Position numbers and translations under genes: made by a program
Part shown: piece by piece, positions 12,366 to 47,532 of the stretch
Layout: every line of letters begins with the position of its first letter
How positions within the stretch are numbered: position 1 is the stretch's first letter
DNA from: Ceratodon purpureus
Taxonomy: Eukaryota > Streptophyta > Bryopsida > Pseudoditrichales > Ditrichaceae
DNA: 64,000 nucleotides
Direction: 5' to 3'
NCBI GenBank assembly: GCA_014871385.1
Contig: CM026426.1
Span: forward strand, 2,057,852 to 2,121,851
The notes under the pieces: model-generated
The model's input: the letters and a program-made list of their open reading frames with translations, nothing else
What the model was told of the DNA's origin: nothing
The model's database searches: none

Positions 12366-12373
12366 CTTATATA
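12366..12373 (-). promoter_or_regulatory. TATA box of the 129-aa gene in MULE A
   Basis: TATATAAG lies on the minus strand with its first T exactly 118 nt upstream of the ATG. The D copy has the same octamer at the same 118-nt spacing, which argues for a selected core promoter. Confidence 0.8.
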
Positions 12374-20020: not shown

Positions 20021-20423
20021 GATCTAGTTCTCATACTTCCCTTTTCATTCTATTTTCTTCATTTTTATAAATATTTACTCAATACTCTAGTTGTAGTGTA
20101 ATATCGATAGTGTAGTTTTGTTGTATTTCGGTTTATTTACACTACTATTCATTCTCTTGTTCTTGTATCTGCTTTAGTCTTTAAAATTTGTTCCATGTTT
20201 TTTAAGACATGGGTTATCCAATGAATAGCCATATATCTTTTATCCAACAATTGAGAATACAGGTGCAATGATCTGTACTGCCTGCATGGAAAGGAACGTG
20301 TACATGCCTTGTATATTGAAACTGTCTTTTCAGATCATCTTGAAGTCATTTTAGGAGTTTTAAAACATATATTCTATATACCATAGACTGAAGGCAATGT
20401 CCTAGACATAGAAATAGTAGAAG

Positions 20424-23400: not shown

Positions 23401-24693
23401 CAACCTTCATTTAGAACCCTTCTTCGTGGTGGCGTAGGTGTCGTGTCTTCGTCTTCACTTAACTCTAGTGGCTTGGAAACTTCTTGCCCAGAATGATGGA
23501 TATGAATGTCCCGTGATCTAAGTGCGTACCTTGATGTACTGCTACTTTGTCCTGCGTTAGTTTTCTCTACTATCTTTGCAGTTTTATCCGACGCAAATCT
23601 TCGCAGTCTCTTGAAAGAACTTGGTCTAGGCTGATCATCAGAAAATGTTTGGCACTCTAAACCGGGCAATGCATGGCTCTCTTCAATGTCTTGTGTAGCT
23701 TCTTCAGAGCCAGGGGTAATTTGGCTTATGGGGGTGTTAGGTTCCTGTAACAATCTGCAAACACTCCCTGCTCCTGATGCGATGTCTATCACCATGTTCT
23801 CGGCCCCGCCTACTGCTCCATATTCGTGTCCTGCTTCCACATCCAATCGTACAGCCTCCTTACGAGTTGTCTCCTAGTATAAAGTAGTGCTTGTCTTCGG
23901 AGCCCAAGGCCTATGTCCTTCAGGTGCAGGGAAAACAAGTCCTGCTTCTTTTAGGATCTTCGTATAAATCTTTCCATCACTAGGACAGAATGTGGGATAC
24001 ATTTTCAAGATTTGTACAGGTCCGCTCTGCATGTCCTTCCACGCCTGGCATTGGTCCGTGTGTCGATGCCAAGACAAACTATTCTTATTTGAAAATATCT
24101 GATGGCAAAACCGACACCAATACCAGCGTCTCTTATCTGGGTGGTAGAAATGAAAACGATAGTCATAGTGAGCCTCAATGATAAGGTCCTTGTACTCCCT
24201 TTCCGTGTAAAGACACACGCATTGGTTTCGGCCTTCCTTTAATGTGCACCTGTGAACTGCCTCGCCTCCAACCTATACACCCTGAATCACACCTACTGGG
24301 CCATTTAGGGCGATGTCCAGCCACCTCTCTCTTCCCAACTCCGTCATGAGCCGTTGGTCTGCGTTGATGTTCAAATTCTTTCCCAACAGATTCTCGGCTA
24401 ATGGCCCTGCGGTTATCCCCTCACCATTATAATAAAGTCCACCTTGTACACCTCTGGATCCCGTTTTCTTCAGTCCTAGTCGAACAGACTTTTCTCCCGG
24501 GACTAGATTACCTAGTCTTTGTGTACCACTAACGTCTGTCTCGAAATTCGCAGCCACTGAAGTAAGAGCCGCCTCTGAACTACCGTCGCCTTGTCCAAGG
24601 AGTGCATATGGTGGCGCGGCATCTTCAACAACGCCTTCCATACCTACGATCAGATTGTGTCGGCGGTGGCTATCCCATAAACCTAGCAATTCC
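20424..24693 (-). pseudogene. Ulp1-family cysteine protease gene b of MULE A (C2H2-Ulp1)
   Basis: Exons on the minus strand are about 24693-23091, 22934-22092, 21934-21546, 21346-20689 and 20561-20424. They join in one frame of about 1,209 codons to a final TGA. Only three in-frame stops break it (TAG at 24275-24273, TAG at 23876-23874, TGA at 21249-21247), with no frameshift. The order matches gene a: N-terminal GITAG region, C2H2-like finger (YWCRFCHQIF..LSWHRHTDQC), a Ser/Arg-rich linker with VPGLYYIL and GPWIYW, a helical domain (WGWSPLF..CPHIVRAL), then Ulp1 with His in EHWSLAIL, Asp in KFDSG, Gln and Cys in PQQTDTWSCGF. Gene a's first intron is absent here. The ATG is probably at 24641, with a possible acceptor at 24694 suggesting an upstream exon. 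The predicted activity, removal of SUMO-like tags, is inferred from the family. Confidence 0.88.
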
Positions 24694-27265
24694 CTGCATT
24701 ACAGAATCAAATTAATAACAATGACTACTAGATTAGAGCGTAATACAATATACTTCTACATTGCATTCAAAATGAAATCTTAGCAGAAATCAAATGAATG
24801 CGACCTGAACATGAAGGAGAGACAGAACATGAATACAAAAGTAAAATATACTTTAAATCATGTCTAGTTTAAAATTGCTTTAAAAATAATTTGAATTCCT
24901 CATTAAGATTAATCGCCATTTCTTGGACTCTGAAGCACTATGACTTTGCACACAATGTACTAATACTTTCTTTCAGATTCTAAGAGGAAATCCTAGATTA
25001 TAGGAACTAGTAAACCAACGCTGCGTTATGCAGGTGGCATTTCATTTTCGCCCAAACAACCATAATATTGATGTGAGATATAAAAATACCTTAGAAACTA
25101 ATGATAAATACGAAGCTTTTAATGATCAATACTGTTCACAGTAGGAGACCATATTGCTCGAAATACATTGGACAAGGCATTGTAAAAACGTACTTGACGC
25201 TCAGCCTGGAGCAACGCAGGCTCCTCTCTAGTAACCTTGCCCACTTCACTGCCTGAATAGAGCACATCCTCAATTAGTACTTCTCCAGTTTCACATTGCT
25301 CCCTAACACTACCCCTAGGAGAAACGCATGCTTCAAAAAGCTTAACACTCCATATCAAAGGATCGAAGAGGTTGTACTGCACTTACGTTCGTTGCAAAGG
25401 CAAGAGGTGCCTCATCCCTTAGACAGCACTTCAGAGCGATCAGCACTCCCTGCGAGGTACTCTAGAAAATATGTGCATTCAGAATTTGGAGGCATTGATC
25501 AATTCAATGAGAAAATAAAGCAGGTTCGACATGGGAGCTACGGTTCCTAAATCCGAGAATAACTATGTAATTCTAGCAGTACGCATTCCGTTAGTCAAAG
25601 TTTTAGATTACAACAACAATTTGAAGTACCTTATTCTTCGTGGCTTTACTCCTTTCATCACTTGAATATGCATGCTTTTTTGATAGACTATGTCCATCTG
25701 CCAATTAACAGTGAGACATATGTTGCACAGATATATCGGCAGAGCAATAGAAGAATTAAATGGTAGCTTTGCCTTTGCTGGTGAGGGACTGAATAAGTTG
25801 CTGTTTCGGGAAGACAAACTCTCTCTTGAAAACAAGATCCAGTTGTTGTAGTTCTGGTTTTTAATTAACACACATGAAGGTGCACATGGTCAGAGGCAAG
25901 GACCAGAACGAGACCAGAAACTCGGAGACAACATGCTGTTTGAGAAGATAGTTTACAGATATGACATTTTGGCTTGTTAACTTACTCGTCAAAACTTGAG
26001 AAGCAGGTCCAGACTCAACAAACAAATGACATTGAGGGCACTGAAAGCTTGAAAGTAACTTCAATCAGTCAAATAACGATTAAAGCATACAAAATCTTTA
26101 CTCACAATTCACAAAAATCTGTACATATTCATTTAGCATACCCATTTAATTCCTTGGCATTCATGGTAGCTACTGCACATTCCGCCACAGCCAAGTGCAT
26201 AGACAGCACACCTAGCTCTTCAGCACCATAAGAACACTATCACTGAGAGGGGAACCCTAAAGCCTGCTCTCATAAATAGAACTACAATCTCAAAAATGAA
26301 GCTCTAAAAACCTCAGAAGGAGAATCAAGGTCTCTACTTCATGCCACAAGAGCAAGACAACATCCTTCTCTGCAAATGTTCCCGAAATAAAACATCACAA
26401 GAAGACGAAATGGTCACAAGTAAACTTACCTTCTTCAAGCGTGAACAGGAAAAAAAAAAAACAGAGAATCCACAAAGGAATATCGTCCTCGGCATTCACG
26501 CACTCCTTCACCCAACTATGTCCTTCAACATGTCAACGAACTCCTCCTATATTCTGGAAGTTCTAATAACAAGCCCTAAACCCTAAAACAACTATCCACC
26601 CTCCAGCCATCGCCGCATTTAACCCATAACCCTCCACATTGTATCACTAAAAACGTACTCCACCATTAGAAAGACAAACATGTGTTCGATTTGGCAGGAC
26701 AAGTAATGCAGAGCAGCACAAACTGATCGCGTCTCCACAAGATGTGCACTGAACGAAGGAGAGATAACCCTGTAGACGACGAAGATATATGTAAATAGGA
26801 CAGAGTCTTCCTAAACATTCACACCCCAGCCCCGACCCAGGCCAGGCTGGCATCCCTAAACCCTAAATTAACATTCCAAACTAATTTAGCCGTAACAGAA
26901 TTTAATCCTTCAAAGCCCACCGCAACATGTAACATCTCACCTGCTTGGCATTACAGACACAATTGGAGTATTCGGCTCTGCACAACAAGTCGCCAATCGC
27001 AGGACAAGATCGTGTAGTATCCCCGGGACGAGAACAACACAGAGGTCAATGCTAACATTGTAGATGACGAAACCAGCTCCAACTCCATCGATGTAGACGA
27101 CGAAGCCAGCTGTAACTCCAACGGTGAAGTAGATGACATCCATAAACCCAGCTCCCGAGACCAAGGCCAGGCTGTCAGATCTCGCGGGTGACCCGTCGTT
27201 GTGTGAAGGGTTGACCAAGACCCTTCCCCGGAGACTTTTCTCCGGGCAGGGGGTATCAGCCCGCC
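24694..27265. other. Leader between Ulp1 gene b and the right TIR of MULE A
   Basis: 2.6 kb without a clear gene. One minus-strand segment (about 25379-25194) is open between an AG acceptor and a GT donor and reads like an exon (YNLFDPLIWSVKLFEACV), but its phase does not match the first known exon of gene b. It could be an upstream exon or a captured host fragment. Telo-box strings (CCCTAAACCCTAAA) occur near 26577 and 26857, as in promoters of the other element genes. Near 27054-27130 a ~33-36-bp unit encoding nothing obvious is repeated about twice. Confidence 0.4.
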
Positions 27266-27309
27266 TTTCGTCAAATTGGGAGTTTGTGGGGGGGTCGCTA
27301 ACGTCCTCC
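27266..27309 (-). repeat. Right terminal inverted repeat of MULE A
   Basis: Read inward from 27309 on the minus strand, this gives ACCCCCCC, AACTCCCAATTT and CGAAA at the same distances as in the left end, followed by a GC hairpin (CCCGGAG..CTCCGGG). The outermost 13-15 bases have diverged. Confidence 0.75.
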
Positions 27310-29480: not shown

Positions 29481-32012
29481 GGAGAACCCTAAATGTCATG
29501 TAAGAAAGGATAACGCAAGATGGAGAGCATGGACCGTGGACGGCTGTGGACCCGCATTTCCCTCCCCGGTAACTGCAACCATCGCGTATCAGTGGACCTG
29601 CATTGTGTGACCTGCATTGAACGTTGCGTTACACTAAATACTGACGGCCTTTGTGACACTACGTTCCACAACTAACCGTGCCCCCAAAAAATGACGTCAC
29701 CCCACGTCATCGTCTCCCTTAGCCTCGTAGAAGCGACTAGGGTTTTCCAAGCGTTAGAGTTCGAGTGTTATTGTCTTTTGTGTCCAGAGGTCTGTATTAC
29801 TCCAAATGTGCATGTAATTGATTTACTTCTAGAAACATGTCTGTTTAGGTTACATTACGTATTCTTGGTTGTTGGACGTCGATTAGTCGGTGATACTGGA
29901 TGGAAACAATTAATGTCACCTACATCCAAGATTGTTTTTGTGAAATATGTCATTAGGTTTCGCAATGATGAGTAGAGAGCAAGGGATTTTAGCTTAGGTC
30001 GACGTCGTTTGGCAGAAGGAGAAGCCCAACGGAGGGCTGGATATGGAGAGCGAGTATGGACTCAAAGATTTCTCATACACTGTGAAGTCGATTTCTAGAG
30101 AACTTCTGCCGAAGCCGAGGAAGAAACCACATCCTCTTGATTGCGTTCTTGAAGGTAATACGCTCGCGCCCACTTGTAAAGCCCGAGCAAAGAGAGTTCA
30201 AAATCCGCAGGGGAGGAAACCCCCTTGCACATTCAAGTCTAAAGGACATGGATGTGGGGTGGATGCTATGGATTGGATGTTGGCAGATCCTACGTCGTTG
30301 CCCAAGAAGCGTCCTAGTAAAAAGTCCAAAGTAGATGGTACCATGGAATATCCATCAGACATTACGAACGACGAAGTTACAACCTCTCAAATTCCGGATC
30401 TGAACGAAGTGCCTTCAATTGAGGAGGCTCACACTAGTTCTGTGCCAATGGTGAAAAGGAAGGGGCCACGGAAGAAGAAAGTCAACATCCTTATTTTCAA
30501 CTCTAGTGTCACATTAGAACAACCGGCTGTCAAAGTTGTAAGAAGAAGGGCTCTGAAGGCGAAAGCACCTTCTGCACTGGCCAAAGCAGCTGGTCCATCC
30601 TATAGAGGTGAGATTGCGGGACCTTCACATTCCGACGTGGGTTCTGTTGTAGATGCACTGAAGCCTGCGAAACATCCTCCAAAGAAGTACGCACCAAGAA
30701 AGAAGAAGGCAACACCCGCTTGCGAACATTAGTGTCACGGGCTTGGCCCAGAGATTTTGCGGCGTCAAGAGCAGGAGGCGGTGAACTCTATCCAACCGGA
30801 ATTCAATGCTAGTTTGCCTCAACCGCAGCCCCCGTCTCTGGTTTCTGTTATAAATGACCATTCATGAGTCACTGATGGGCTTGCACCGCTATTGTCTGCT
30901 TTATGTGACCATGCCGACATTTCATGTTGTGAAGCACGTTCAGCCAGACCCCTGTCATCGGAAACGTTGAAGCCGTCCTTGCACGGGAGGTCATTGACAT
31001 CTCTTACTTGGTGGAATAGGCTCCCGAAAAGTAGCGACGTTAAGGCGTCCGCACATGAGGAAAAAAAAAATGACTCTAAAAAGAAGTAGGGGGTCCATTA
31101 AGCAAGGGTGCCTACCTCAGTTCATAGTGAAGACTCTTCTATACGCGCCGCATGTGTTCGAGATATGCATAATACAAGAGAAGCATGTCAACTAGGACGG
31201 CCTTGTTGTGCACGTTGGTATGAAATGTGGAGATCGTAGTGCTTTCTCAGCAGACTTGTCGCCAAAAATTTGCGCATTTGTAGAGGAATATTTGCGCCGC
31301 AAAGACTCTTCAAATCAAATAATGAAGAAGCACCTTGAACTAATGAAGAAATATCAAGCTGGGGGGAGAGATATAACGCAGGTCCTGTTGCTTACAACCA
31401 AGGACATCCGCAATATTTCTGGGAAACTAGCTCTAGAAACTTACATGTTGCATAAGAATGACACACAAAGTGTAAGAATGTGGGTTGAAAGGAATACGGA
31501 TGAGGTATTTTATTATACTGAGTCCAATAAAGAGAAGCCGATTCCTGTCCCGGGTGAACTGAACGCGACGAACATGCTTTTCACTATTGGAATTCAAATA
31601 TAGAGTGACAGCGCCTGATGATGCTGATGCACGGCCAACGTAGAGGTATTTCCGTTGATGTCACGTTTGGCACAAATGAGAAAAAAGTAACATTACAATA
31701 CAACTTTCTAAATACTTTGAAAGTTATGACACTCTTTGAATTTTTTTGAGGTTTTCAAGATCTGCCTTCAATGTACACTCAATCTGTTGGAATGTACACG
31801 CACCACAGTTCCCCCTCTACACTAAATCATGGTTTTCAATGAGTGACATAATGGTGTACATCTTGCTTTTATATTAATTTTTAAATGTGCCAAAGTCAAC
31901 CTCTCCCCGTGGATGAAAGCTCTGAATGCGAGAATGGTTGCTGAAAAATCTAATTGGAAATGGACAGCTTTTATCGTCGACTACGCACAAGAAGAGATAA
32001 ATGCCATTAAGT
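29481..32012 (+). mobile_element. MULE E: truncated relative of MULE D
   Basis: The left end begins GGAGAACCCTAAATGTCATG, matching the terminus of D (GGAGAACGCTATTTCGCATG) at most positions. Like D's TIR it contains an AAAAAATGACGTCA block (about 29690), so roughly 29481-29745 is a related TIR. The transposase follows, collinear with D's. Homology stops after the 200-nt-type DDE exon at about 32012; no right TIR, protease gene or 129-aa gene is present. A 9-bp candidate target copy (TTGATCATT, 29472-29480) has no partner that I found. Confidence 0.75.
30043..32012 (+). pseudogene. MULE E transposase remnant
   Basis: The segment 30043-30732 reads EYGLKDFSYTVKSI and continues with basic AT-hook-like blocks, about 60-70% identical to the same part of D. 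Reading then passes a stop at 30730-30732 and others up to 31200. At 31208-31603 the conserved block KDIRNISGKLALETYMLHK and VRMWVERN appears, then the first catalytic Asp region (GISVDVTFG, about 31650). MVFNE, with a stop where D has Trp, and the second Asp (FIVDYAQEEINAIK) follow to about 32011. The final exon with the Glu region and SWIM finger is gone. The gene is non-functional. Confidence 0.85.
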
Positions 32013-32378: not shown

Positions 32379-32387
32379 GACGATAGC
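32379..32387. repeat. 9-bp target-site duplication, left copy, MULE D
   Basis: GACGATAGC immediately precedes the left TIR. The identical 9-mer follows the right TIR at 47524-47532. Confidence 0.95.
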
Positions 32388-32689
32388 GGAGAACGCTATT
32401 TCGCATGTAGGAAAAGTGGGTCCCGCCGCGCCGTCCGACGTGGCATGCCGCGCTGGCCCCCGCGTTTTCCCACGATCCGACGGTTCCGGTAAGTCGCGAG
32501 TGGAGTAAAATCGCGATGTCACGTAACACTGGACTACCGAGACACGCCGTCGACCGAGACGCCGTGACACTGAACACTGCCCACTTCCGAGACACTAGAA
32601 TCGGAAACCTGACCGCGAACTCAAAAAAACATGACGTCATAATTACGTCACAGTCCCCATCGTCTTCTCCATTCCGATTAGGGCTTCCA
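32388..32689 (+). repeat. Left 302-bp TIR of MULE D
   Basis: Starts GGAGAACGCTATTTCGCATG and matches the inverted right end with about seven or eight mismatches. It contains a GC-rich outer third, a cluster of CGAGACAC/GTGACACT motifs (32526-32595) and an AAAAAAACATGACGTCA block. The motif cluster is a candidate transposase-binding region. Confidence 0.95.
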
Positions 32690-33058
32690 GTGTCTCGTTA
32701 GAGCTTTGTCGTTGTGGGTAGAGGGGGAGTATGTGTGCATTCAGGTATCTCAAAGCACTAGGGACATTAGGGTTTAGTAGTGATTGCGTTAGGAATTATG
32801 ACATGTTGTATCATTGAATTGCATTGTACTCTCCGTGTTGAAGCTGTCGCGTCTCGCCGTTTTGGATTCGACTACATCATTCAACAATTAATGTGCAAAT
32901 CGCTCTGGAATTGACCCCTTTCAAAACGCGCAGGCGCAGAGCTTTGAAGGTTTAGGGGTTTCACTTACGAGCATTTCGCGGCATGGAGGTAATTGGTCTT
33001 GGGTTTTGTTGTCGTCTCTTCGTTGTTTCTTCGTTTTCAAGGCGATTGCGCTCGCGGG

Positions 33059-36000
33059 ATGGACTCGTACTGTACTCACCTGTCTAACATTCGCATTGTC
33101 AGCAGGGGCTCCCTGGAGACACCCATCCACGAGCGCTCTATATTCTGGAGCATTCCAAGGTAATTTTTTTTTCGCATAGAAACTCTGTTTATGTCATTTT
33201 AGAGCTTCGTTAGGGTTTACTGAAATTTCTAGTGTGATCGGGAATGCAATGTTGTTTTCCTCGTACAATGTGTTTAGGGTTTACAGCAACTAATCCAGGA
33301 GCTCCTTACGGTTTAGGATTAGGATCTTAATGTGATTTTACATTAGCCACATTTCTACCACTGCAATCTTGCTCGCACTCTTCTAACTACTAAGCTCGAC
33401 AGGGACGACGTCGAAAGCACCGAGCAGGATTGGTACTACCATCCCGTGCTATGCCCACATAGCTGCGGCGCTTGTATTGGGGTCGTCAATAAGTTTCGTT
33501 TCCTTAGTTTCTTCCCTGCTGGTTGTCCGAAGTGTGGGTCATCTACGCAGGTATACAAGGCCGAAGACATGGAGGAGGAACCGGTGACACTGAGAAGCAA
33601 GATTTATGGGATCTGTTACGAAGTCCAGTACCCAAGTAGAAGGCGTGCTAAAGAGCTCCAGGCCGAGTTTGCAACCGCGGCGAAGGGGAAGGTTAAACCA
33701 GGCGGGACGAGAAAGTATTTTGTTTGCATCCATTGTGGTCGCGACTCTTTTAGTAACAAGATGATGCTCAACCGCCACAGATACGTAGAAGGCAGTGACG
33801 GGGCAAAGCATCCGGATGGTTCCCGTGCGTTACTCTTACCCTACCCTGATTTCAAACGTGGGGAGGGTAACAGGGTTGAGGTGTTGGAGAAGGTTACTGT
33901 AGAGGCACAGAAGAAGACTGCATCGGCTGCTGCGAAGTCCGGGAAGGGAGTGGATGCGACAGTGAAGAAGAATACGATGGAGCAACCGGCTATGGGGGAA
34001 AAGTCTCTCAATGCTGTTGGGGATGGAATTTGTGGACGACGGTTGGAAGGGAACAGCGGCACCGGGTACAAGATTACTCCTGCACCTGATATTATCTGCG
34101 GGAAGGTGTGTGAATCGGATGCAGGGGGAGATGGAGGGGGTGATGGGCATAAGAAGCGGAAGACTACACCAACGGGGGCTGCCCCTCCGTTCCGTAGTTG
34201 CCGTAAATCTGTGTCGAAGGGGTCCCCGGAGCATAGAGTCACGGGGTCAGAGGAAGTTCGGGAGCAGTGTCACGAGGACGTTGATGATACGCGAGACACT
34301 CCGGAGGAAGGAGACCAGGATGTCGTCGAGGGAGGTAAGAGGAAAAGGTCTGTGGCTTTTCGGTTAGAGGCTGTACAGAATCTTGTGCCAGCCCAGAATG
34401 CACCCAAACAGGACATACGGGTGACAGGGAAGGATATTCACAGAGGAGTTGATGCCCGGGTGAAGGGCCTACCAGTTGGGAATTGTGATACTAATGCTCA
34501 ACGTCAACTCTCTCCGAGTGAGGACGAGGCGGTGCTGTCACCTACATTACGGGAGGTTTTGCCGGGGAATGGCAACTCCAAGAAGGCTGACCAGAGTTTT
34601 CATGTCGCCTATCGAGAGCCAGGTGGACAGAGCGGGAAGAAGCAGAAGAAGAGTTCGTACGACGCCGACGCTGAGGTAAGCGATAAGCAACGGGCAATAG
34701 ATACTTTAAGAGATAGATTTACTAAAGTTGTTCAAAGTGTTCTTCGAGGGCCCCATAGTGTGTACTACTCTACAAAATGTAGTGGTTTAGGTTGTAATAG
34801 TGACTGTAGCGCCTGTGATTTGCATCATCCCTTTTGTGACACTGGGGACGGCGTAATAGATAGTGTTACATTGCTGGATCACTGTATAGGGGGGTCAGAT
34901 ACCATACAGTGTCACAGTGACGGTGTAGCGGAGGAGGAGAATGCTGTACCTGATACACCATTTCAGAATGTTCCTGTACGGGATACGGAATGTACTCTAG
35001 AAAGAATCAGCGCGGAACATGTCTGGGTTGGTGATATACAGAGTGTGACGGACATTCAAGAGTACTGGGCAAACGGGAAGGGGTCTAGGGATCCATTTGC
35101 CTTTTTCCCGGAAGCGTTTCAGAGGTTCACTCTACGTGCTAAACTTATGAATGACTTAGAGGAGAAAACCGTGACAAAAATATGTAAGGAAGCCGAATCT
35201 CCACAGCGGATTAGGCCCCCTCCAGTGTGTCCACCGGAACCCCGACGACCTGGTCTGTACTACCTACGGGACATAGGGGGGGATGTGACACTGCCCTGGG
35301 TTTGGGAGTGTCACAGTGGTGACGACTTTCTTGAGAAGTGGGAAAAAGCAGTCAGAGACAAAGAGTTCAGGGAGAAGGTGCCTCACTGTACGAATTGGTG
35401 GAGTCGCAAGAAGGTAAGCTGCACGTATCAGTGACATTGATTTCATTGTTTTTTTAATATGCTTCGAAATAAGACTCCCTAGATATTGATGCACTCTAAT
35501 ATATAGATAAATGGTACAGGGGGACAAGAAGAGTCCACTGGCGAAAGACGTCGTTGAGGAAGTCACGAAAGCCATAGACGCGCTTGTTGAAAGCGTGGAA
35601 GATGGGACTCCATATGCAGATCTCCACGCACTGAAGCTGTACATACAGTGGACGATTGATTATGGCAAATACGAGGAAGCGTTGACGAAGTATAAGGAGG
35701 ACTTGCGTGCGGCTGAGGCGAATCGAGAGGCAGCGGCGGTAACGGAATTCAGATGTACGAACGGGAGACTGTTTGAAGAAGTCCGGTGGGATTGGTCCCC
35801 CATATGGCAGGTATTAGCAGAGGAGGAGGGAATTTTGTCTACTCTCCCGACCCTACCGTGGCGTCACGATGGTGAGAGTCTTGAACCTATACTACGTCTG
35901 TCAGTACAGTAAACATTCGTAGAATATCAGAGTATTTTTTGGCGTGCGTCTTTGACTGAAAATTATATTCTGTGGCTGGAACAGGAGAGGAAGCCGCTCA

Positions 36001-38727
36001 TGTGCGCCGAATACTATGCGGTGATAGATTAGAGGCGTTGACACCCCCTCCGCTAATTTATATTTTCCGTGTACTCTTCAAATGCCATTATGGGGAATTC
36101 AGAGTACTCTCTTGTCCGAGGTACGGACTGACGAGGGAGGTAATATCCGAGGAGTGCCATAGGGGTATAAATATTCAACGAGCGTTGTCTACATTCATAG
36201 CGGAAGGTCCTTATCAGTACTCACGGATAGGGTTTGTTCTGGGAGAGACATACCGCTTACAGATTCTACAGGATGTGGATAAGATAAATGGTGGTGACGG
36301 CGAGGAGATGATTCAGGAGGTACTGCTGTGGGTGCGGAGAGTGCGGGTTAGGGCATTGCAGGACCTAGCCTTGTCTCATGCTACGGTATTTACGGGAGCG
36401 TGGACAGCAGTGACTCATGAGTTCTGGCCAGAGATCGCTCATACGTGGGATCAGGTCTTGCGAAGGAGGGAAGAACGTGATGTCCGTTACGCGATAGGCG
36501 CAGATAATCCTACGCAGGATTCCCGTGTTATTACTTTGCGTAAGGAGATTCAGGAGAGAATTACAGAAGTAGGAGACACCATCATTCAAGAGGATAAAGC
36601 ACTCTGGGAGCTGTGCAGTAGAGAGTTCGCGCCTCCGGAGTCCCAACGTCCTAGTGTCACGAACTCTGTTGCAGGATTGTTTCAGGACCCAGACAGTGAG
36701 GAAGAGAAACCAGTACCTGCGGAAGTTATACGAGATTCATCGAATGGAGAGAACGTGAAGGAGGACAGTCGTGACACCGGGGAGGAAGTCCAGGCTGTCG
36801 TTTCCGTACTTCCGCAAGCGCTAACTCTGTCACACTGTGACACTGCTGTTCACACGGATGACATTGCAGCAGATCATGGTCCCCCGGAACTAAATTCCAA
36901 TTCATTCCCTGCTGCGGAGAATACTACAGGCGCGCGTCCTGAAAGTGGATCCGTATCTCCCATTCCTGGAGACAGTGAAGATAAATGCGAAGTGGAAGGG
37001 GCCGAGGATAATATAAAGACTGACGTTACAATGGAGCCGGAGAACGTGGACGCGGATACTGGCTTCAGCGTTGTCAAAGGTGTCAGCAGCGGACTTCCAC
37101 ATGATTGTAAGGAATCTTATGCTCCAGTGTTAGCGGTAACATCTCCAGAATCCATCGTCGTCAGCCACCGGGATTGTGAGGCAGTTCCAAATGTGTTCCC
37201 AGAGATTACGCGCATAATGGACGACCCAGTGACGTCTCCTCGAGGAGCCCCTTTAATCACACTCAGCCAGTTCCATAATACCGCACACGGCGGTGAGGAC
37301 ATGGTTGAGGAACACTCACTGGGTTTTTCACAGGATCTAAGTTTCGTGCAGTGGATGAAGGCGCCTACAGACGTGGCGGTTCAGACTCCTTATAAAGGAG
37401 TATCCATTGTGACTGGTCAAGTTGGTGCGGAAGTGGATGTCTCTGACCGTCTGGGGATTCAGGAGGATGGGCCTCCAAAGGACTCAGCGTGCAGAAATCT
37501 ACATGCTACATTCAAAGAAGAGAAACAGTTGGAAGCAACGGCGGAGCAGTTAGTGGATCTCTCTCAGCGTCACGACATGCAATGTAAGCAGCATACTGCA
37601 AGAGTACTTTCGAGTCAAAAAGACCTCGACTATGCAATGGCAGCTGCGCCGTGGCCAGGTGGTGGCATTGTTAGAGTGGAGGATGTGAGTATTATGTCTC
37701 TGCCCCAAGCCTATAACTACTTACATATAGATGACTTCTTGCAGAGTCTCCCAGGACGGAAAGGACGTAGGGATGGTGCAGAGGAGGTGGTGTTCTACAA
37801 CGAGAAACAGAAGGAATTGGAGGTTCGGTTCGCAGCTATCAGATCACTAAAGCGCGCGCGAGATAGACTTGGGAACGACATGGTAGATTTTGTGATGTCG
37901 AGGCTCTATTTTCAGTACCCAGCTAGAGATAGACATGAAGTACTGGTGGTTTTATCCCGCATCAGTTCCGTTTCGAGGCCTTCTGTGTTTACTGACGACG
38001 CCTTACAGAAGTGGGCTTCCATTTTTTAGCACCCCCTCCACCAGTGAAGGTGCACCAGGTGAAGGAAGTCCTTGTCCCGTGGGTGACTAGAGACCACTGG
38101 TCTCTCTTGGTGTTTTTGATTGACCGTGTGTACCACTTGGACTCCCGTATCGGTAACCACAATCCAAAGGGTAAGGACTCTATGTTTGTAAAGTGGATAT
38201 GTCATGCGTGGCAGCATATGAGAGGGGTAGAACCGTATGACGTGCCTGTAGTGACACTGGATGTCATTCGGCAGAAAGGGAAATACGAATGCGGCCACCA
38301 TACCCTGCATAATGCAGTACTGTATTTGAAGGTAAATTTCACTTCCTTAACCATGCTATACACTGGTTTTGTTCTTGTGACCGTATGTATTATTTTTTGA
38401 ATAATTGTGCATTATTCAGGTACCCATAGGATTAGGGTGGTGACACCGATTACATGGCTGATGGTATGTTCATTGTTTTCGTGCTTGGTTGGATTTGGAT
38501 TGCAGTTCCGGGCTAGGCGGTCCGGTAGCAGGGAGGAGTTGCTGAAAATGGCTCTGATGAAGGAGTATAAACCGAAGGATATGAACACAGAAGTGCTTTG
38601 CCTCTTATCCCGAGAACTGGACTTTGAACGGCGTGACACTAGGTATCGGGCCCCTTTTTCTGTTCCCAAGGACAAGAAGATGGTGCACAGTGATGGAGAA
38701 GTGGACGACACACAGCTACTCTTGTAG
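33059..38727 (+). CDS. Ulp1-family protease gene of MULE D (zinc finger-Ulp1)
   Basis: The ATG at 33059 begins MDSYCTHLSNIRIV. Exons are 33059-33159, 33403-35413, 35520-35895 and 35985-38331 with matching phases; the last exon(s) to 38727 cannot be placed with certainty. After a Cys-rich head (LCPHSCGACIG..CPKCG) comes a C2H2-like finger (YFVCIHCGRDSF..LNRHRY). A long charged linker ends in RRPGLYYL, followed by a helical domain (WDWSPIWQVL) and an acidic insert. The C48 domain has His in RDHWSLLVF, Asp in YHLDSR, Gln and Cys in RQKGKYECGHH. The total is about 1,650 residues, longer than the A copies mainly in the linkers. Between DALQKWASIF and the Ulp1 core the frame shifts by one base at a T6 run near 38025, which may be a real mutation or a homopolymer error. 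The expected role is removing SUMO or ubiquitin-like tags in the nucleus. Confidence 0.88.
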
Positions 38728-39794
38728 GGAGTGGTCTATTTTAGAGATAGAGGTCTCCTACATTAATCTTCGTATGTATCTTTAGGTCGTTTTTGACTTC
38801 TTCCCTGTACCGCAGTCTGAAATCGGAAACTGAATGGCAGATATTTCTTTAAGTTACTGTCACTATGACTTTGTAAACATATGTTTCTCTAAATCTGTTC
38901 CGTTCCCATACATATTCCTTTATTTGTGAGTGCATGAGCTGCATTTATAATAAACCTGAAACTCTCAAGTGACACTTATCCTATACTGGCAACACTCAAT
39001 GTGAAGTTAGCGACACTACTGATAAGAACTCAAAAGAAAGCCAGATTTGCGGTATATTGGAGACACTCAGGGGGAGTTTATGACAGTGATGGTGAGAACC
39101 ATATACAGAACCAGGAATGCGTAATACTGGTGACACTAACCGAAAATTTCGTGACACTAACGGTGGTAAGGGAACAGTAAGCCGAGACTAAGGAATACTA
39201 GAGACACTCACGGGGAAGATAGTGACATTGACGATAACAAGCATATAAAGAGTCGTGACTGTGAGAAATTGATGCGACTCACTGGTTTATCTGTCGGGAT
39301 ACACGTGTGGCACTGATTATGCCTAATTCGAATTTAAGCATCTATGTTTAAAAAAAAATTTGTTAAAGACCATCTGGACATGTATGTCCCAGAGTGCACG
39401 AAAGATTAATTTTATATTGTTACATTTTTGGAGATGTCTTTACTTATATTTAGTACCGTTATTTGATATTTATATCACTGTTGAAATCATTTACGATACA
39501 ACTCCAAATTATAAATTTATGTGGTTCATTATCGCAAAATTATATGTTTAATAAATAATAAATTACAATTACATTTCAAGAAAATAAAAAAATTAGAGAA
39601 CCACGAGGGGACACGTTCAATTATATATCATGTTGCTCTAGTCGATGAACATTTTCTCCCAATAATAACATTAATATCGTCCAGTTCTTATTGCGTGAGC
39701 ATTATATGATTTAGGGTTCAAAGTTTTAAAAGTCACGAAGTTCCCGCAGGAGAGGAACGTGGACCGCTCTCATATAATGGTTCCCCAAGGTCTG
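38728..39794. other. Noncoding spacer with a cluster of GACACT motifs
   Basis: This is the 3' flank of the protease gene and upstream region of the 129-aa gene. Between about 38960 and 39330 the motif (G)GTGACACT/GAGACACT occurs roughly ten times at irregular spacing. No coding frame is supported. Confidence 0.6.
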
Positions 39795-39802
39795 TATATA
39801 AG
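39795..39802 (+). promoter_or_regulatory. TATA box of the 129-aa gene in MULE D
   Basis: TATATAAG starts exactly 118 nt before the ATG at 39913, the same octamer and spacing as in the MULE A copy. Confidence 0.85.
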
Positions 39803-39912
39803 GGAGTACTTCTTTGCTTAAACCCTCTCTTCCAGTCAGTCCTTGGGACTCTCATTTCTTATGCCGTGGTCCAAGTGAGGACTATTATACTTTCTCTGAG
39901 TCGATTTTTGGT

Positions 39913-40302
39913 ATGGAAGCGCTAGAATCAGAAGTGTTGGAGTTTCTAGCAAACATGGCCGACTTTGTGGATATAGCTGTCCCGGGAGTGCGTCCATCCA
40001 GTCCGTCTTCCAGTGTCGTACTTGTTCATGCGCATAATGATCGAGTATATCCTCTACTTGTGACTATACGATCTGCCCAGCTGAAGCGTAAGAGGAACCT
40101 TCCTGTGGAAGTTAAATCCAGGGATCTGGATAGGAAGCAGGTCGTTCTCTTCCCCGGCAGAGAACATTTCAAGGGAGTACAGTGTAACAATACATACGTG
40201 TCACTATTGCAAGGGCAGTCGAAGTGGAAGAAATCGGCATCTGACACAAAGGGCATGAAATGTGGTTGTAGCTCCGTAGTATCTTGTACTCACAGTAGTT
40301 GA
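39913..40302 (+). CDS. 129-aa conserved MULE accessory protein (copy in D)
   Basis: An intronless frame of 129 codons plus stop, the same length as the MULE A homologue and roughly 40% identical. Shared features are the N-terminal helix (LESEVLEFLANMADFV), QLKRKR, KQVVLFP, EHFKGV, TYVSLLQGQSKWKK and the C-terminal CGC..VSCTH cluster. The middle 35 residues are variable. Identity is concentrated in the two ends, as expected for selection on a protein. The frame is intact. I chose the ATG at 39913, although the frame is open further upstream, because it is the residue where similarity to the A copy begins. It lies on the protease strand, tail-to-tail with the transposase. The family is unrecognised; a DNA- or transposase-binding helper is only a suggestion from its position and basic, Cys-containing character. 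Confidence 0.88.
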   Translation: MEALESEVLEFLANMADFVDIAVPGVRPSSPSSSVVLVHAHNDRVYPLLVTIRSAQLKRKRNLPVEVKSRDLDRKQVVLFPGREHFKGVQCNNTYVSLLQGQSKWKKSASDTKGMKCGCSSVVSCTHSS

Positions 40303-41737
40303 TAAGTTTGAATTTTATGAAATTACATATATGTTACTTAGAAGGACATTCGTGTATGCTCTTCAAATAACTAATATTGGGACGACAATAGCAGCAATAT
40401 AGTATCAACCTTGATATGATCTTGTTTATTGCAACGCACTTATATGTCTTAACATCATAGGAGGATACATGTGCCTCTAATTCAGTGACACTAGTCCAGG
40501 TGTGTTACACTGTGACTTTGTGACATTCAGAAGTATGGATTTTACCAGCATGGTTGTCAATGAAATATTGGTTTATAATATTGGTATACTATAAATATTG
40601 GTCTTTCAATATGAATTTCGTATATGCACAAAATGGAGGTCGAGTGGTGCTAAATCAGTGTCACCGACTGTTCTATTCAAGAAGAGATAGTTATTGACAC
40701 AGAGCTGACAAGTATAAAAAAAGTGTTCAGTGTCACATATGTTACAGACCACTCTTCTAGTGTTACGATTTATTCGACTAGTGTCACCTACTTTTTAACG
40801 TTCAGAAGGCATCAGATTTTATGCATACGTCGACCGTTTCTGTTGCTTATACACGACCCTCTGTATTATTTTATAATACTCATTAACCATGTTGTTGTGT
40901 CCTTTTCATATCCCTTAAATTATACTGGATTAATAAATATACTTTTTCTCATTATTAATTCCTACTCTTTCATAATATATGTGATTGAATATTCATTCAC
41001 CACGTTGTCGTAACCTTTTGATTTCTCTTAAATTATTTTATGTAACTATCATGTTTACATTTTTCGTTTAGTGGTTAACCATTATATTCATTTTACTAAG
41101 TTACACCCGATCACTTCCCATTTTTTTTTAATTTTTTTTTATTTTTTTTTTCCATTCATATCTATTTTCATATTCATCTCTTTAATCTTATTTGTTGTTT
41201 ATTCATTATTTTATTTTATTTTAATTCTCTCAAAACGCATGTACTCTCTCATTGGTTTATCTTATTCTATAAATTTAAAATTTATGACACACAGTTTCTT
41301 TCAAGTCTTCATATGTACATATTATATTTTTATTTTTTTAAACAACCACATTGTTTGCCCTTGTTTTATGGTATTCTGAATATTTGTGCCCTCTTGTTGA
41401 GGGTTTTAAGTTTAATTTTAAGATAGTGGACGTACTCTTCTACGGTGGCACACATTTAGATACTATGTGAAGATGGCATTATAATTATCCACTTGCTAAT
41501 AGTAATGTTTAGTCCACAGTAGGTTGTGCGTATTGTGTACTCTCTATGATGTAGATTATATAATTTAAGCTTGAATTTTGAAGGTGCTAGTGGAAACTCA
41601 GTAAGGAAACTACGTCGTCACTATGTGCTCAGTAACATATAGATTACCAGAAAGTCAAAAGTATGTCAAAACGTATTAATGAATTACCCCAGCGGTAGTA
41701 TAGTACTCTTGTTGTGCGAACATCGTCGTGACACTGG
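40303..41737. other. AT-rich spacer in MULE D
   Basis: A 3' flank containing several GTGACACT copies (40485-40787), then very T-rich sequence (about 40800-41350). A ~50-bp block (CATTAACCATGTTGTTGTGTCC) recurs imperfectly about 113 bp downstream. The T-rich frames on the plus strand are low-complexity and not credible genes. Confidence 0.5.
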
Positions 41738-42143
41738 ATGCTCAAAATTGACCATTATAAATATGTAAGTACACCGACAAATTACGGTAAGCAGAAAATC
41801 AATTCCGAACGGAGCGCACCAACTTCCAAACAACCTCGCAGTGCAACCACAGAGAAGCTCAGATTGACAAACATGGTGGCATACACAGATTTACAGAAAT
41901 GGCGATCCGGGAAAGGACTATCTACTGATGGTGTACATGATATGGCGTAAGTAGTTGAAAATGAAATATAAGTTTGTATTCTTCGAAGTGTCCAGTGTCA
42001 CAAAAATATAACGGATAATAGTGTCACGCTGTCGCTACAGGAACAGAGCACATTCCGTTAAATACTATGCTTCGGCTTTATCTCGGAAGGAGAAGCTGTC
42101 GGACAGCAAAATCTACCGATTCACACCCTACTTCGCACTGTAG
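41738..42143 (+). CDS. Possible two-exon 103-aa protein in MULE D
   Basis: Exon 1 (41738-41946) ends in a GTAAGT donor and exon 2 (42041-42143) follows a GCTACAG acceptor. Joined, they give one frame of 103 codons ending in TAG. The product is basic (KQKINSERS, SRKEKLSDSK), with an aromatic C-terminus (YRFTPYFAL). I recognise no domain and see no counterpart at the same place in MULE A. It could be a real accessory gene, a captured fragment or chance; good splice signals are the main support. Confidence 0.35.
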
Positions 42144-42625
42144 TTGCTTACATTGTCCTCTTCCTCGTCGCCTATACCACTATAATACTGTTCCATAACC
42201 CATGCCGAATTGCCAAAGTCCTCTGCGGACGAACTCCGACGCGACTCCATCTCCGCCTCCCTCTTGTGAAATTCTTCTCCGTCGCGGAAATGATGTCCGA
42301 CGATCTCAGCAACACATGCTCCATCCCGATAGCGCACACTGTGCTGGTCACCTTCTCGCGGAACACAAACAGTATGAGGTGGTTGGGGAAAGTCGCCCAG
42401 TGACATCGGGGCAAAAGCAGCACGGCCTCCGCAGTCATTGCGGACACACCTCCAGAATACCAAAGCAAACATCAATGTACATCCCAGAATCACACATTCC
42501 AGAGAACCCATCTCCACAATCAGACCGAAACGAAACATTTTCTGGACACTCTCCACTTGAATCGCTAAGTACACGAGTTTTCGAAAGACATTGAACAACG
42601 AAGACCCGGCATTAAGTACCTTCAC
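42128..42625 (-). CDS. Possible small membrane protein in MULE D
   Basis: This open frame of 165 codons has internal ATGs. A hydrophobic stretch (VILGCTLMFALVFW) could span a membrane and is followed by a polar, acidic C-terminal region. It lies just downstream of the transposase on the same strand and overlaps the last bases of the possible plus-strand gene. No domain is recognised. It may instead be extended 3' sequence of the transposase transcript. Confidence 0.3.
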   Translation of the reverse strand: MKVLNAGSSLFNVFRKLVYLAIQVESVQKMFRFGLIVEMGSLECVILGCTLMFALVFWRCVRNDCGGRAAFAPMSLGDFPQPPHTVCVPREGDQHSVRYRDGACVAEIVGHHFRDGEEFHKREAEMESRRSSSAEDFGNSAWVMEQYYSGIGDEEEDNVSNYSAK

Positions 42626-42723
42626 ATACTCGTGATAACAGAATATTCTACGAAGACTGCGTATGAAGATTTAGAGTTAGTAGAAAAGATCCGCCACCAT
42701 AGTGAAGTTACAGTTGTACCTGG

Positions 42724-45700
42724 TCAAAGTCGACGGGCACAGGAGGGACCAGAACGCTCGAGGAAATCCTTCCTTCGGGCTAGCTTAAATCCCATGCCAT
42801 CATCTACTGGGAAAAAAACGGGTTCTCCTTGCATAGGATGTAATGTTCCATCCCGCCTCTCTGCCTTAATTCTTCGTAAGCGCCCCAGAGTCAAATTGAA
42901 CTCAGCCACCAAATGCTCCATCATTACGGAATCTCCGTTAACCTCCTCCGACAGTAGTAAAATTTGCTGTGACAACATGTCCGGCAGGTCCTCTACCGTC
43001 CGCCATCTTGGTGTAATATTTGGTGTCACAGGTACGCCTGCAGAGTCACCACACGGTGTGAATGCTCCCACTGGTTCAGCATTGTTTTGACGACGAGGTG
43101 TCAGTAGCTGCTTCAGTCCACCATTGATGTTTCCAGCCATCCTGCCACAGTACCTCGCAATTGTTCCTTTTGCGAGGTCCGGATTCATCATGGTCAAAAC
43201 CTTCACGTGGTGCTTGCACATGTTACCCTTTTGTGCCCAGACACAGTTACAAACCGCCCACTTTGAATCAGGGTTGTGAACTGTGTAACGCATATGACGA
43301 TGCGTTGTCGAGGTGACCAAAGCAAATCCGCCGGTTTCCTCTAGTAGAGTGACATCACTGTCTGGAATTTAACGTGCCTTCAAAATCGACTCTACGGTGA
43401 TGTCTTGCAACTTTTTGTTGTCAATGAATCCACTCTCCTTTCTGAGATCCTTGTACCAGTAATGGTCAAGAACGTCCTCTGTCAAGGCAGTGATGCACCA
43501 ATCCACTCGCCTGCCAGTCATTCTACTACGCTCAGACCTTAGTATGGACTTGGCGAATCCATGGTAACCCTCAATAGCAGCATTAGTATCCTGTCCGCAG
43601 TATTTTAAATTTCGGAAGCCTACAACCCACATATGTGCCTTTTCGATCCAATACTCCTTCATGTAGTCCCAGAACTCCACCTCCTGAGGGTATTTCTTCT
43701 CTAATTCTTCAATACGCGATTTTGCCCAGTGTTGCCCCTCTTCTCCCGGGCGTGAACTTCTGTCGTACATCATTAGCCCCAGTTCCTTCATAATAGCTGC
43801 TCGTCTACCTAAGTCTGATATCTTATAGCACCCATTCTTCTGCCAAGCTCTTCGCACATGCCATAGGCAAAGGAAAATCGCGGTATCCGGCCACGTGTCA
43901 CTGCAAACAGTGTCACAGTAGGTTGTCGAAGATCAGTAATCATCCAATACCTGGGATAATGGGATAAAAGTAGAGTGCACTGAAGAGAGAACGTATTCGC
44001 ATATTTGTGATAGAGACTCTAGTGTCACAGAATCGTAGTTGACGTCCGTGACACTAAAGTGTGTACCGTGACCTTTGTATACATATTGTGACACTGTAAT
44101 TATAGATCAGAGTACATAGCATCGGTTGTAACATTCCATTTCACGTAGAAACAGTAAGTGGAACGTACTTTATCGCATTGATTTCACCTTGTGCACAGTC
44201 TACTATAAAAGCAGCCGGTTTCCAATCTGGTTTCTCCTCAATCATCCTTGCGTTCAGTGCCTTCATCCAGGGACTTAGGTTAACTTCTGCACATTTAGAG
44301 GTGAGAATGAAAGCCACGGGAACCCCATTGTGCCACTCGTCAAACACCATGAGTGTATAGAGTGGAAACTGCCACACAGAAAGAAGAAAACCACTTGGGC
44401 GATTAAGCGTAGTCTTTTCGCAGTAATATCTGTGTATGAATGAAATAGATTTAACTGATTCCTACGATGATTGTTGCGCATGGTAGGCACGGTAATAATA
44501 GAATTAGAGTCAAGCTTAACCACAACAAAGAAAGCTAGTTAAGTAAATACATACCTTCTTCTCATTAGTTCCAAACGTTGCATCTACTGAGATCCCCCCT
44601 CGGTGGCCATGTTCTAACATCATTTTACGTTGCCATTCGGTCTGGATTCCGATTGTGAAAGGCATGTTGGACCCTGTCAATTCCCCTGGAACAGGTACAG
44701 GTTTCTCTTTGTTCGATTCTGTGTAGTAAAATACCTTCTCGGGGTTTCGTTCTACCCACATCCGGACACTCTGTGCATCGTTTTTATGCAGCATATATGT
44801 TTCCTGCGCCAATTTACTAGATATATTGCGAATGTCCTTGGTAGTGAGGAATAAGTCTCTAGTGATGTCTTTCCCCTCAGCCTTGTACTTCTTAAGTAGC
44901 TCAAGATGCTTCTTCATTATCTGATTTGACGAATCCCCGCGGCGTAGACAGGCTTCAACGAATGATCTGATCTCGGGAGAGAGATGAGCTGAGAAGGCGC
45001 TTCGATCCCCGTATTTCATTCCACCGTGAACAACTAAACCGTCACGGTTAATATGTTTCTCCTGTATAATGCAAATTTCAGAAATGTGGGGTAAATACAG
45101 AAGCTTCTTTACAGTGAACTGTGCCTGGCAGCCCCGTTTAATGGAATTCCCCCATTTCTTTTTCGAGTCTCTCTTGATCTTAGGCCGGGGCAGGGGTTTA
45201 GGCACATGTGGAGGGGGATTGTCTTGTACCTCGTCCCGTGTATTGTTGCTGGGGTCGTCGACTTCTCCTAAATCCTCATTGACAGCCTCCCGTCCATCAC
45301 GTACCAAGGAGTCCGTCATCTCTTCGCGTAGGGCGTCTGCAGTGTCACAAAGAACAGACAATATAGGGGGGAGTCCGTAATTGAGAGTACCTTGTGTCTC
45401 AGCGAAACCGTCCTTTGAGTGGGTCATACACCCTTCGGAATCCTCTGGAAGTATTGGTGTGTGCACCGTACCTACCGGATTGATCGTCGTAACAGGTCCT
45501 CCCTCGACGTGACACTGGGTGTTAACAGCGTGCGTCACAGGAGACGGCTTCTTCTTCCTTGCACTGGGTTTCTGTGCCGCCTTTCGAGAGGTTGGTGCGG
45601 CGTTCTTCAAAGAACTAGCCAGTGGATCACCGCTTCCATGATTAAGGCAGGGATGGGGAGGGGGATGATCTTCAACCATGCCCGCAATGTCACATAACCC

Positions 45701-46915
45701 GGAAATAGATGGATGTTGCACTGCGCCTTCATGATGACATGTGGTCTGCAGAACTTGAACATCAGTTCCCTGCAGAAGCTCTAGAAAGCCCTTTTTCTTC
45801 CTAGGAGCTCTCTTCTTAGGTGGTGCGACGTCCGTTATGCAACCTGTATCAGACAGAAGTGCACCGTGAACATTCACTTCTGAAGCCATCGGCGGATCTT
45901 GCGTGACGACAGCGACAGCCTTCGCCCTTGATACTCGTCTTCTAGGTTTTGAGGTAGTTGTTCCCGGAGCAGTGACACTGGACACTTCGGAACCGGCACC
46001 TGCTGCCTTCTTACGGTTTGATCTCTTCTTCGCGACTGCAGGAGGGGGATTGGAGACATGTACCTCGCGTGGGAGCTCGTTGAGGTCCGGAATCCCAGTT
46101 GCACACGCACCGGTGGAGGTGGCGTCACATGGCACTGCAACAGTATTCTGTCCTTTCCCCTTTCTACCACGTCGCTTCTTCGGTGAGGGAATGGGATCCT
46201 GAACCATCCAATCCATGGCATCGGTGACAGTGGCAGCTGTTTTCGCCTTGAATTTCCGAGGAGGTTTTCTTCCTCCATCAGCCTTTGTCCGTTTCGCTCT
46301 AGCTTTCCGAGTCGGGGCCAAAATGTTGCCTTCTGGAACGCTGTCAGGAACCCTAGGTTTTTTCTTAGACTTCGGAAGTAAATCCTCCGATATAGGCTTA
46401 ACAATATGTGAGAAATCCTTCGGGCCGTACTCACATCTGAACCTGCGCATGCAACAGTACTCACTAAACACCTTATGTCTACAGACGTGAGAAATGGAAG
46501 TTCTAGACAATACACTGTGACAGTAAGATACAAACCTCGTGAATTCCATGGCAGTCTTGTGCCCATCTCGCCTTTGATTGGGCTTACGATTCTCTTTGTT
46601 TGCGCGGAATTTGCACTGTGCACCTTCTCGCCCGCACTGCATTCCGTCTATGAAGTCCTCAACCCTATCAGATGGAATAAAACATTGCTGTACTACATGA
46701 GATTTCTTGTGCTCACTACGTGGAGGACGGTATTCCAGCTCCCAACTCAGATCGCGTGGTCCGAAGATACCATCGGGAGGATTCTGCACGCGATCCAGGA
46801 TTGCCTGTAGTTGTAGTTTATGCCCCTCCATAGCATCGAGATCTACATCCGACCGAGTACCGTCGAACTCCATGGACACTGGGAACTCCGCACTGGCGCC
46901 CTCCATGCCACCCAT
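42724..46915 (-). CDS. MULE D transposase (MURA-like, DDE plus SWIM finger)
   Basis: Exons are 46915-46536, 46442-44555, 44368-44169 and 43900-42724; I chose the ATG at 46915. The order is a N-terminal domain shared with MULE A's transposase (RVEDFIDGMQ), several AT-hook-like basic blocks (KPRRRVSRAK, PKKRAPRKKKG) and a conserved block KDIRNISSKLAQETYMLHK. The catalytic Asp in GISVDATFG follows, then Asp in FIVDCAQGE, CLWHVRRAW, the Glu region NAAIEGYHG and a SWIM finger (CNC..CKHH). The second-last exon is 200 nt, the same as in A. The first intron (46443-46535) is 93 nt and open, so its retention would keep the frame. One in-frame TAA lies at 43371-43369 between the Glu region and the SWIM finger, where MULE A encodes Glu; the rest is intact. 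Confidence 0.92.
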
Positions 46916-47221
46916 TGGCCGTTGCTTGCAGGCCAAACAACCAGTACCGAAACCTATCTAAGTAGACAGCCCCATAAGGTGAAATTGTCGTGTGACCTAG
47001 AAGTGAAACCCTACAGCGATGTCTATGAAATCTCAACGGCATTGCAACTTCCGAAACCCATGCACGACATCGACAACAATGCACGTCCACAAGAAAACGC
47101 ATTCAGAACCCATTACAACGATTAGCAAATAGTACGATGTCTACATTGAAGATCGCGAAACCCCTCAAACGGTGATCCGCCAGGAGAAGGCAGAATACGA
47201 GAACACTGGAACCCTAATCCG

Positions 47222-47523
47222 TGGAAGCCCTAATCGGAATGGAGAAGACGATGGGGACTGTGACGTAATTATGACGTCATGTTTTTTTGAGTTCGCAGTC
47301 AGGTTTCCGATTCCAGTGTCTCGGAAGTGGGCAGTGTTCAGTGTCACGGCGTCTCGGTCGACGGGGTGTCTCGGTAGTCGAGTGTTACGTGACATCGCGA
47401 TTTTACTCCACTCGCGACTTACCGGAACCGTCGGATCGTGGGAAAACGCGGGGGCCAGCGCGGCATGCCACGTCGGACGGCGCGACGGGGCCCACCTTTC
47501 CTACATGCGAAATAGCGTTCTCC
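47222..47523 (-). repeat. Right 302-bp TIR of MULE D
   Basis: Inverted copy of 32388-32689, with about seven or eight differences. Just inside it a short TIR-like piece (GGATTAGGGTTCCA) is repeated. The transposase promoter should lie in or just inside this repeat. Confidence 0.95.
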
Positions 47524-47532
47524 GACGATAGC
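47524..47532. repeat. 9-bp target-site duplication, right copy, MULE D
   Basis: GACGATAGC is identical to 32379-32387. Confidence 0.95.

Follow-up and report, generated by a model that had tools for sequence, protein, structure and literature searches.

A lineage of Mutator-like elements in the moss Ceratodon purpureus joins a convergent transposase and Ulp1 protease gene pair to a private repeated word

Our analysis concerns a 64,000-nucleotide stretch of the genome of the moss Ceratodon purpureus (GenBank assembly GCA_014871385.1, contig CM026426.1, positions 2,057,852 to 2,121,851; hereafter the window), and within it element B, which is one copy of a large lineage of Mutator-like elements (MULEs) in this species. 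The core of this lineage is a convergent pair of genes, one for a DDE/SWIM-type transposase and the other for a protein that combines a finger-like motif with an Ulp1 protease domain; in element B a small gene of 129 codons lies between them. Element lineages keep different private words, YAGTGTCAC in the B lineage and GCAGTACA in that of element A, a second MULE of the window. By analogy, we tentatively read these elements as a bryophyte counterpart of the Arabidopsis VANDAL and KAONASHI (KIU) elements, in which a protein encoded by the element would read the private motif and counter silencing. We give this reading a probability of roughly 45%.

Element B has long terminal inverted repeats (TIRs) and a perfect 9-bp target duplication, GACGATAGC, on both flanks. 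TIRs, duplication and the gene layout of the 15-kb unit were found precisely where an earlier account of this DNA, made from the letters alone (the preliminary description), had placed them. A sister copy of 15,210 bp (G000:C6:79726307-79741516) has the same ends as element B (97-98% alike over the parts read) and carries a perfect 9-bp duplication of its own, GCCTATTAC. Because this copy shares the ends and has its own perfect duplication, the unit is mobile as a whole. The 9-bp duplication, perfect in two copies, and the long TIRs are those of the Mutator superfamily, and the proposed MULE identity of element B is supported. The MULE domain PF10551 reaches 18.4 bits in one of its exons (E-value 0.003), under the cut-off of 27.6, and 42.8 bits in the element A transposase, above it. 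A scan against Rfam gave no matches. The element had also been called complete, which holds for its structure but not for its genes; the small gene is intact, the other two are damaged. In the transposase of the window copy an in-frame stop stands at 43371-43369; the 23 relatives compared all lack a stop in this codon, though three of them carry other stops within the compared stretch of 121 residues. The Ulp1 frame is broken just ahead of the catalytic part, and a single frame is kept at this point in 10 of 11 scorable relatives, including the close sisters L045-L048, the eleventh (L064) being a stray match. An intron near position 38,000 was considered and rejected in favour of a frame break, since the sisters are open in one frame.

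Genome-wide, 100 of the best 150 Ulp1 matches (of 327 candidates) have a transposase match within 12 kb, and all 100 pairs are convergent, which bears out the inward transcription that the window had suggested. The transposase probe was likewise scored for the best 150 of 783 candidates, so that counts from both probes are lower bounds. A set of 58 MULE transposases that are more distant served as a control; within 12 kb of them lie no small gene and a single Ulp1. The small gene gave 138 genome matches, of which 131 were used; with both lineages pooled, 122 of these are accompanied, at a distance of up to 15 kb, by at least one of the two partners (80 by both, 30 by Ulp1 only, 12 by a transposase only). 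According to the preliminary description, a protease or small gene lying mostly outside MULEs or beside other transposases would refute a dedicated three-gene system, and this is not what these counts show. A small gene living outside MULEs was considered and rejected: nine copies have no partner within 15 kb among the matches listed, seven of them being 55-59% copies of the ordinary type, and one of the nine (L029) is adjoined by a transposase-exon fragment.

What is not supported is the proposal of a dedicated three-gene working set. In element B the 129-codon gene does lie, intact, between the convergent Ulp1 and transposase genes. Among the matches listed, however, no small gene was detected within 12 kb in 58 of the 100 B-lineage pairs; it is missing from 15 of 48 transposase-Ulp1 pairs of the A lineage, occurs in both orientations and is, between subfamilies, much younger than the genes beside it. 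A profile search of the gaps of three B-lineage elements, L065-L067, found it in none of the three (best E-value 2.1), and these elements are nested among trio elements in the transposase tree. Where both partners lie within 20 kb, 45 of 46 small genes stand between them (21 co-oriented with Ulp1, 24 flipped); in the exception the nearest transposase is 17 kb off, and both it and the Ulp1 gene lie to one side of the small gene. The 61 transposases of the A lineage divide into 33 with both partners (small gene between in all 33), 15 with Ulp1 only, three with the small gene only and ten with neither.

Both the Ulp1 fold and its catalytic residues, as first proposed, are supported. The residues H, D, Q and C, which we take to be the Ulp1 catalytic residues, occur in this order, are invariant in all six aligned domains (A1, A2 and B types) and align with SENP5 too. 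A predicted model of the element A domain (predicted local distance difference test, pLDDT, 66) matched 17 PDB entries at E-values up to 1e-3, all of them SUMO proteases; the best was yeast Ulp1 (E-value 3e-6, TM-score 0.47), and SENPs were also matched. Furthermore, PF02902 is assigned in the database to a Ceratodon homologue, P0017 (KC19_1G277000). This protein, 59% identical to the element A protease, is entered there like any other hypothetical protein or Ubiquitin-like protease family gene. The finger had been called C2H2, which is loose: both element A paralogues read as C2HC (C-X2-C-X12-H-X5-C), the B finger has no canonical fourth ligand, and zf-C2H2_11 on the element B finger exon stays below its cut-off (E-value 0.019). 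Across relatives, the median ratio of nonsynonymous to synonymous change (dN/dS) is 0.22-0.24 for the Ulp1 gene and 0.06-0.15 for the transposase. A second Ulp1 gene is common in the A lineage: in 44 of 57 A-type catalytic matches (at least 45% identity) a second match on the same strand, 32-43% identical, lies upstream, spaced 6.6-8.0 kb away in 39 of the 44.

The window holds 32 copies of the word AGTGTCAC, where 2.67 would be expected (the largest of 100 shuffles gave 6): 29 copies lie in element B, three in a fragment of the B family (29.6-31.6 kb) and none in the other 46.8 kb. It exceeds expectation in all 24 B-lineage elements examined (5-29 copies against 0.2-0.8), and was not found in 26 kb of other MULE loci, L001-L008, of which L008 belongs to the A lineage. 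A pyrimidine stands at position -1 in 273 of 293 sites, giving YAGTGTCAC. Another word scores higher in the L060-L064 clade and in some short loci, and certain clades have more than expected of a secondary word, CAATGTCAC. The copies of element B are split 13+/16- between strands, and their density per kb goes from 3.3 in the TIRs to 2.8 for noncoding sequence and 1.4 for coding sequence; GTGACACT stands at TIR position 177, one copy in each arm. In five independent sister pairs 37 of 51 motif sites are identical, compared with 1074 of 2319 flanking 8-mers (46%, p 1e-4) and 1502 of 2990 GC-matched 8-mers (50%, p 1e-3). Element A in turn holds ten copies of GCAGTACA, which is found nowhere else in the window. 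At L053 (950-1131) the B word has multiplied to form a tandem array, a pattern also reported from VANC targets.

Such a word might be a host transcription-factor site, gathered by the element for expression in a chosen tissue. Motif clusters do occur on either side of the small gene and within an intron of the transposase gene, and TGTCNN is an auxin-response core. We nevertheless consider this explanation improbable, for the A and B lineages keep different words, copies lie in coding DNA and the 46.8 kb of neighbouring window DNA holds none.

The small protein has 26 invariant columns among 19 aligned sequences, its C-terminal CxCx5CxH included; two copies outside this alignment, L024 and P0007, each lack one cysteine of the motif. 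Its model has a pLDDT of 52, with disorder predicted except in helix 2-16. A search of 5.77 billion proteins gave nine homologues, none shown to be from a species other than Ceratodon; compared with 31 Ceratodon copies, five of the nine reach 93% identity or more with one of them, and the other four stand at 64-76%. The proteins of elements A and B are 46% identical (E-value 2e-35). In L050 and L051 the surroundings of the gene, a block of some 1.5 kb with noncoding DNA included, are inverted and 82-86% alike; between B and these two loci the intergenic DNA beside the block gave no match except where about 150-170 bp of the block occur a second time. Synonymous difference between B and the flipped L050/L051 is 0.11-0.14 for the small gene against 0.86-1.40 for transposase and Ulp1. 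In deeper subfamilies the small gene differs by about 0.4-1.4, its neighbours lying mostly outside the range of the method. A constantly low rate is ruled out as the reason, because among close relatives the small gene changes at about a third to twice the rate of its neighbours. We conclude from these comparisons that the gene spread laterally between already diverged elements, and that it behaves as an optional shared accessory cassette, exchanged between them. The three gene trees are congruent by Mantel tests (r 0.87 with 21 elements and 0.64 with the 12 that are non-redundant, p 1e-4), which we judge to favour joint inheritance among relatives and to be compatible with lateral spread at depth.

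A median dN/dS of 0.37 over 958 (not independent) pairs indicates that the small gene is under selection. In the close B clade, against this, its dN exceeds dS in all three pairs printed, pointing to relaxed or positive selection, with changes too few to distinguish the two. The small protein was also considered as reader of the motif and rejected: L065-L067, which have no small gene, keep 9-12 copies each, so that it is not a required reader.

It could be argued that the Ulp1 and small genes are captured cargo without function. Gene capture by MULEs is known, many copies carry stops, the small gene is often absent and the B clade shows the dN excess just mentioned. This explanation is disfavoured and appears very improbable to us, as median dN/dS lies far below 1 for all three genes over the wider set, the catalytic and CxCx5CxH residues are conserved, and the tandem Ulp1 duplication is retained in 44 of 57 A-type loci. 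Moreover, the adjacency of 100 of the best 150 Ulp1 matches to a transposase stands against a single Ulp1 beside the 58 other MULE transposases.

The comparison that guides our reading is with Arabidopsis. Passages of PMC5735166 describe that VANC21 binds YAGTATTAY, that VANC6 targets carry AGTTGTCC/AC, and that such motifs are repeated in noncoding parts of the proteins' own elements, where methylation is lost. Some VANC genes carry Ulp1, according to passages of a review that also places the capture of Ulp1 by non-TIR MULEs at about the time when monocots and eudicots split, and calls its function unknown (PMC13317346). As far as passages of PMC5735166, PMC13317346 and PMC10398659 describe them, VANDAL and KIU elements resemble element B in being MULEs with several genes, a transposase among them, in the Ulp1-domain protein (in KIU) and in a private short motif repeated inside. 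Element B differs in its 302-nt TIRs, VANDAL and KIU being called non-TIR; in its fusion of finger and Ulp1; in a motif that lies outside tandem repeats and also within coding DNA; and in an optional third gene (with VANB sequence outside the comparison). Element A has two Ulp1 genes, and the host is a moss. DUF1985 and DUF287 were not found in the exons scanned, taken separately, at E-values up to 0.1; the scan left out the B tail exon, 13773-14474 and 12642-12929 of element A, and 21509-21964, 23055-23873 and 24276-24698 of its second Ulp1 gene. Its TIRs are long, and neither DUF1985 nor DUF287 turned up in the exons that the scan covered; element B is not a VANDAL, yet we think that it may work like one.

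On this model the transposase would cut at the TIRs. The element marks itself with a 9-bp word of its own, YAGTGTCAC for the B lineage and GCAGTACA for element A. We infer that a DNA-binding protein encoded by the element reads this word, most likely the finger-Ulp1 protein, with the transposase as a serious rival. Once there, the finger-Ulp1 protein would free silencing factors of SUMO or of a different ubiquitin-like tag, and the element would escape silencing much as VANC proteins free Arabidopsis VANDALs. The gene for the small, mostly disordered protein is an optional accessory traded between elements. A broader claim, which we find rather doubtful, would be that self-tagging, sequence-specific anti-silencing by MULEs is not a eudicot invention, and that this moss radiation has a finger-guided SUMO protease reading lineage-private words (YAGTGTCAC, GCAGTACA and the secondary CAATGTCAC), with the small gene traded.

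Several observations weigh against an anti-silencing role. The window copy is itself damaged in transposase and Ulp1. PF02902 scores 16.6-18.6 bits, under its cut-off of 20.7; the X13 finger of element B has the missing fourth ligand described above; and the DUF1985 and DUF287 scan was negative, as was said. Unlike VANC motifs, 14 of the 29 motif sites of element B lie in coding DNA. One of the five sister pairs, L052/L058 (5 of 10 sites), has no excess of motif conservation, and the B-clade small gene shows more dN than dS. Finally, an unrelated MULE (L001, L002, L004 and L005) also has a private motif, TATGATGGGTATT, with 7-8 repeats within about 500 bp beside one end, pointing inward, and in L001 two further, reversed copies at the other end. 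No Ulp1 lies within 27 kb of these four loci among the matches listed. This placement beside the ends suggests a transposase site, so that a private motif alone does not point to the protease.

The last case agrees with a different explanation, in which the dispersed motif of element B would likewise be a transposase-binding site, its internal copies rearrangements or decoys, and Ulp1 would aid transposition instead of countering silencing, for instance by desumoylating the transposase or repair factors. The copy at position 177 of both TIRs fits such a site, and passages of PMC2836005 mention that a role of Ulp1 or OTU in transposition has been suggested. We regard this explanation as tenable, at rather less than even odds: 27 of the 29 copies lie outside the TIRs, spread on both strands over the whole 15 kb and not near the ends, and noncoding copies are conserved between sisters.

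Maize MuDR, of about 5 kb, has long TIRs, a 9-bp duplication and two outer genes transcribed inward, in all of which element B resembles it. Element B differs in that its second gene encodes Ulp1 and not mudrB, in its third gene and in its length of 15 kb. Passages of PMC2836005 report a C48 domain of Ulp1 type in Mutators of hydra, lancelet, Arabidopsis, maize, rice and melon, and Ulp1 or OTU in Ginger1. Compared with these, whose layouts fall outside the comparison, element B has its finger-Ulp1 gene as a separate unit that runs towards the transposase gene, together with an exchangeable small gene and a private motif. In literature on Ulp1-carrying MULEs of mosses, Ceratodon or bryophytes, or on MULEs with C48 or SUMO, judged by title and the start of the abstract and with most subscription papers outside its scope, we found no description of this element. 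In this moss lineage the Ulp1 partner is under purifying selection and the private motif is conserved, which makes the age and function of such systems directly testable outside angiosperms; the small gene, for its part, clearly illustrates the transfer of an accessory gene from one transposon to another.

Element A occupies another part of the window (Table 1). Its ends align with a score of 53, whereas 30 shuffles reached 43 at most, and no target duplication was seen when they were read. The trio said to recur there is present in so far as the three homologues keep the same relative order and orientation; it is not a simple trio, as element A also carries a second, tandem Ulp1 gene.

Table 1. 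Coordinates of the features discussed, in window positions
Feature	Position	Strand	Remarks
Element A	7159..27296	.	about 20.1 kb, degenerate TIRs
Element A transposase	7816..11461	+	frames broken
Element A small gene	11869..12255	-	
Element A first C2HC-Ulp1 gene	12639..17762	-	
Element A second, tandem C2HC-Ulp1 gene	20671..24698	-	catalytic domain 40% identical
Second B-family transposase, fragment	29653..31603	+	bears 3 AGTGTCAC copies
Left target-site duplication GACGATAGC	32379..32387	.	9 bp, identical to 47524-47532
Element B	32388..47523		Mutator-superfamily (MULE) element, about 15 kb
Left TIR, element B	32388..32689	+	302 nt; 7 mismatches against right TIR
29 AGTGTCAC copies in element B	32564..47347	.	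both strands, one per TIR
Finger-Ulp1 gene, element B	~33347-38727	+	
Finger exon of Ulp1 gene	33347..35413	+	C-X2-C-X13-H, long polar linker, GLYYL motif; GT donor at end; ends approximate, motifs by eye
Second exon of Ulp1 gene	35511..35870	+	approximate ends
Third exon of Ulp1 gene	35985..38333	+	helical region and Ulp1 catalytic domain (H-D-Q-C)
Tail exon of Ulp1 gene, conserved	38418..38727	+	present in 24/24 B-lineage elements examined
Small-gene cassette, exchangeable	39392..40866	+	inverted in L018, L019, L022, L024, L050, L051 at 82-90%
129-aa small gene	39913..40302	+	intact; N-terminal helix, C-terminal CxCx5CxH
Transposase gene, element B	46936 to 42131	-	MULE-type
Transposase last exon region	42131..42670	-	
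Transposase exon with CxC...CxH	42727..43368	-	motif read by eye, which we take to be SWIM-type
In-frame stop codon, window copy of transposase	43369..43371	-	
Transposase exon	43372..43932	-	
Transposase exon with MULE domain	44144..44430	-	PF10551 E-value 0.003, below cut-off
Transposase first exon	44555..46936	-	long N-terminal region and first catalytic Asp, read by eye
Right TIR, element B	47222..47523	-	302 nt
Right target-site duplication GACGATAGC	47524..47532	.	matches left duplication

An array of 20-bp tandem repeats lies at window positions 32090-32211, just beyond the left end of element B. Contig C6, the contig of 110.5 Mb that holds the window and that we take to be a sex chromosome, is enriched for these elements: among the matches listed it has 60-71% of theirs with 30% of the bases, and 93 of the 131 small-gene matches. 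Other MULE transposases are not concentrated there (22 of 58), which raises the question of why these elements accumulate on a 110-Mb contig.

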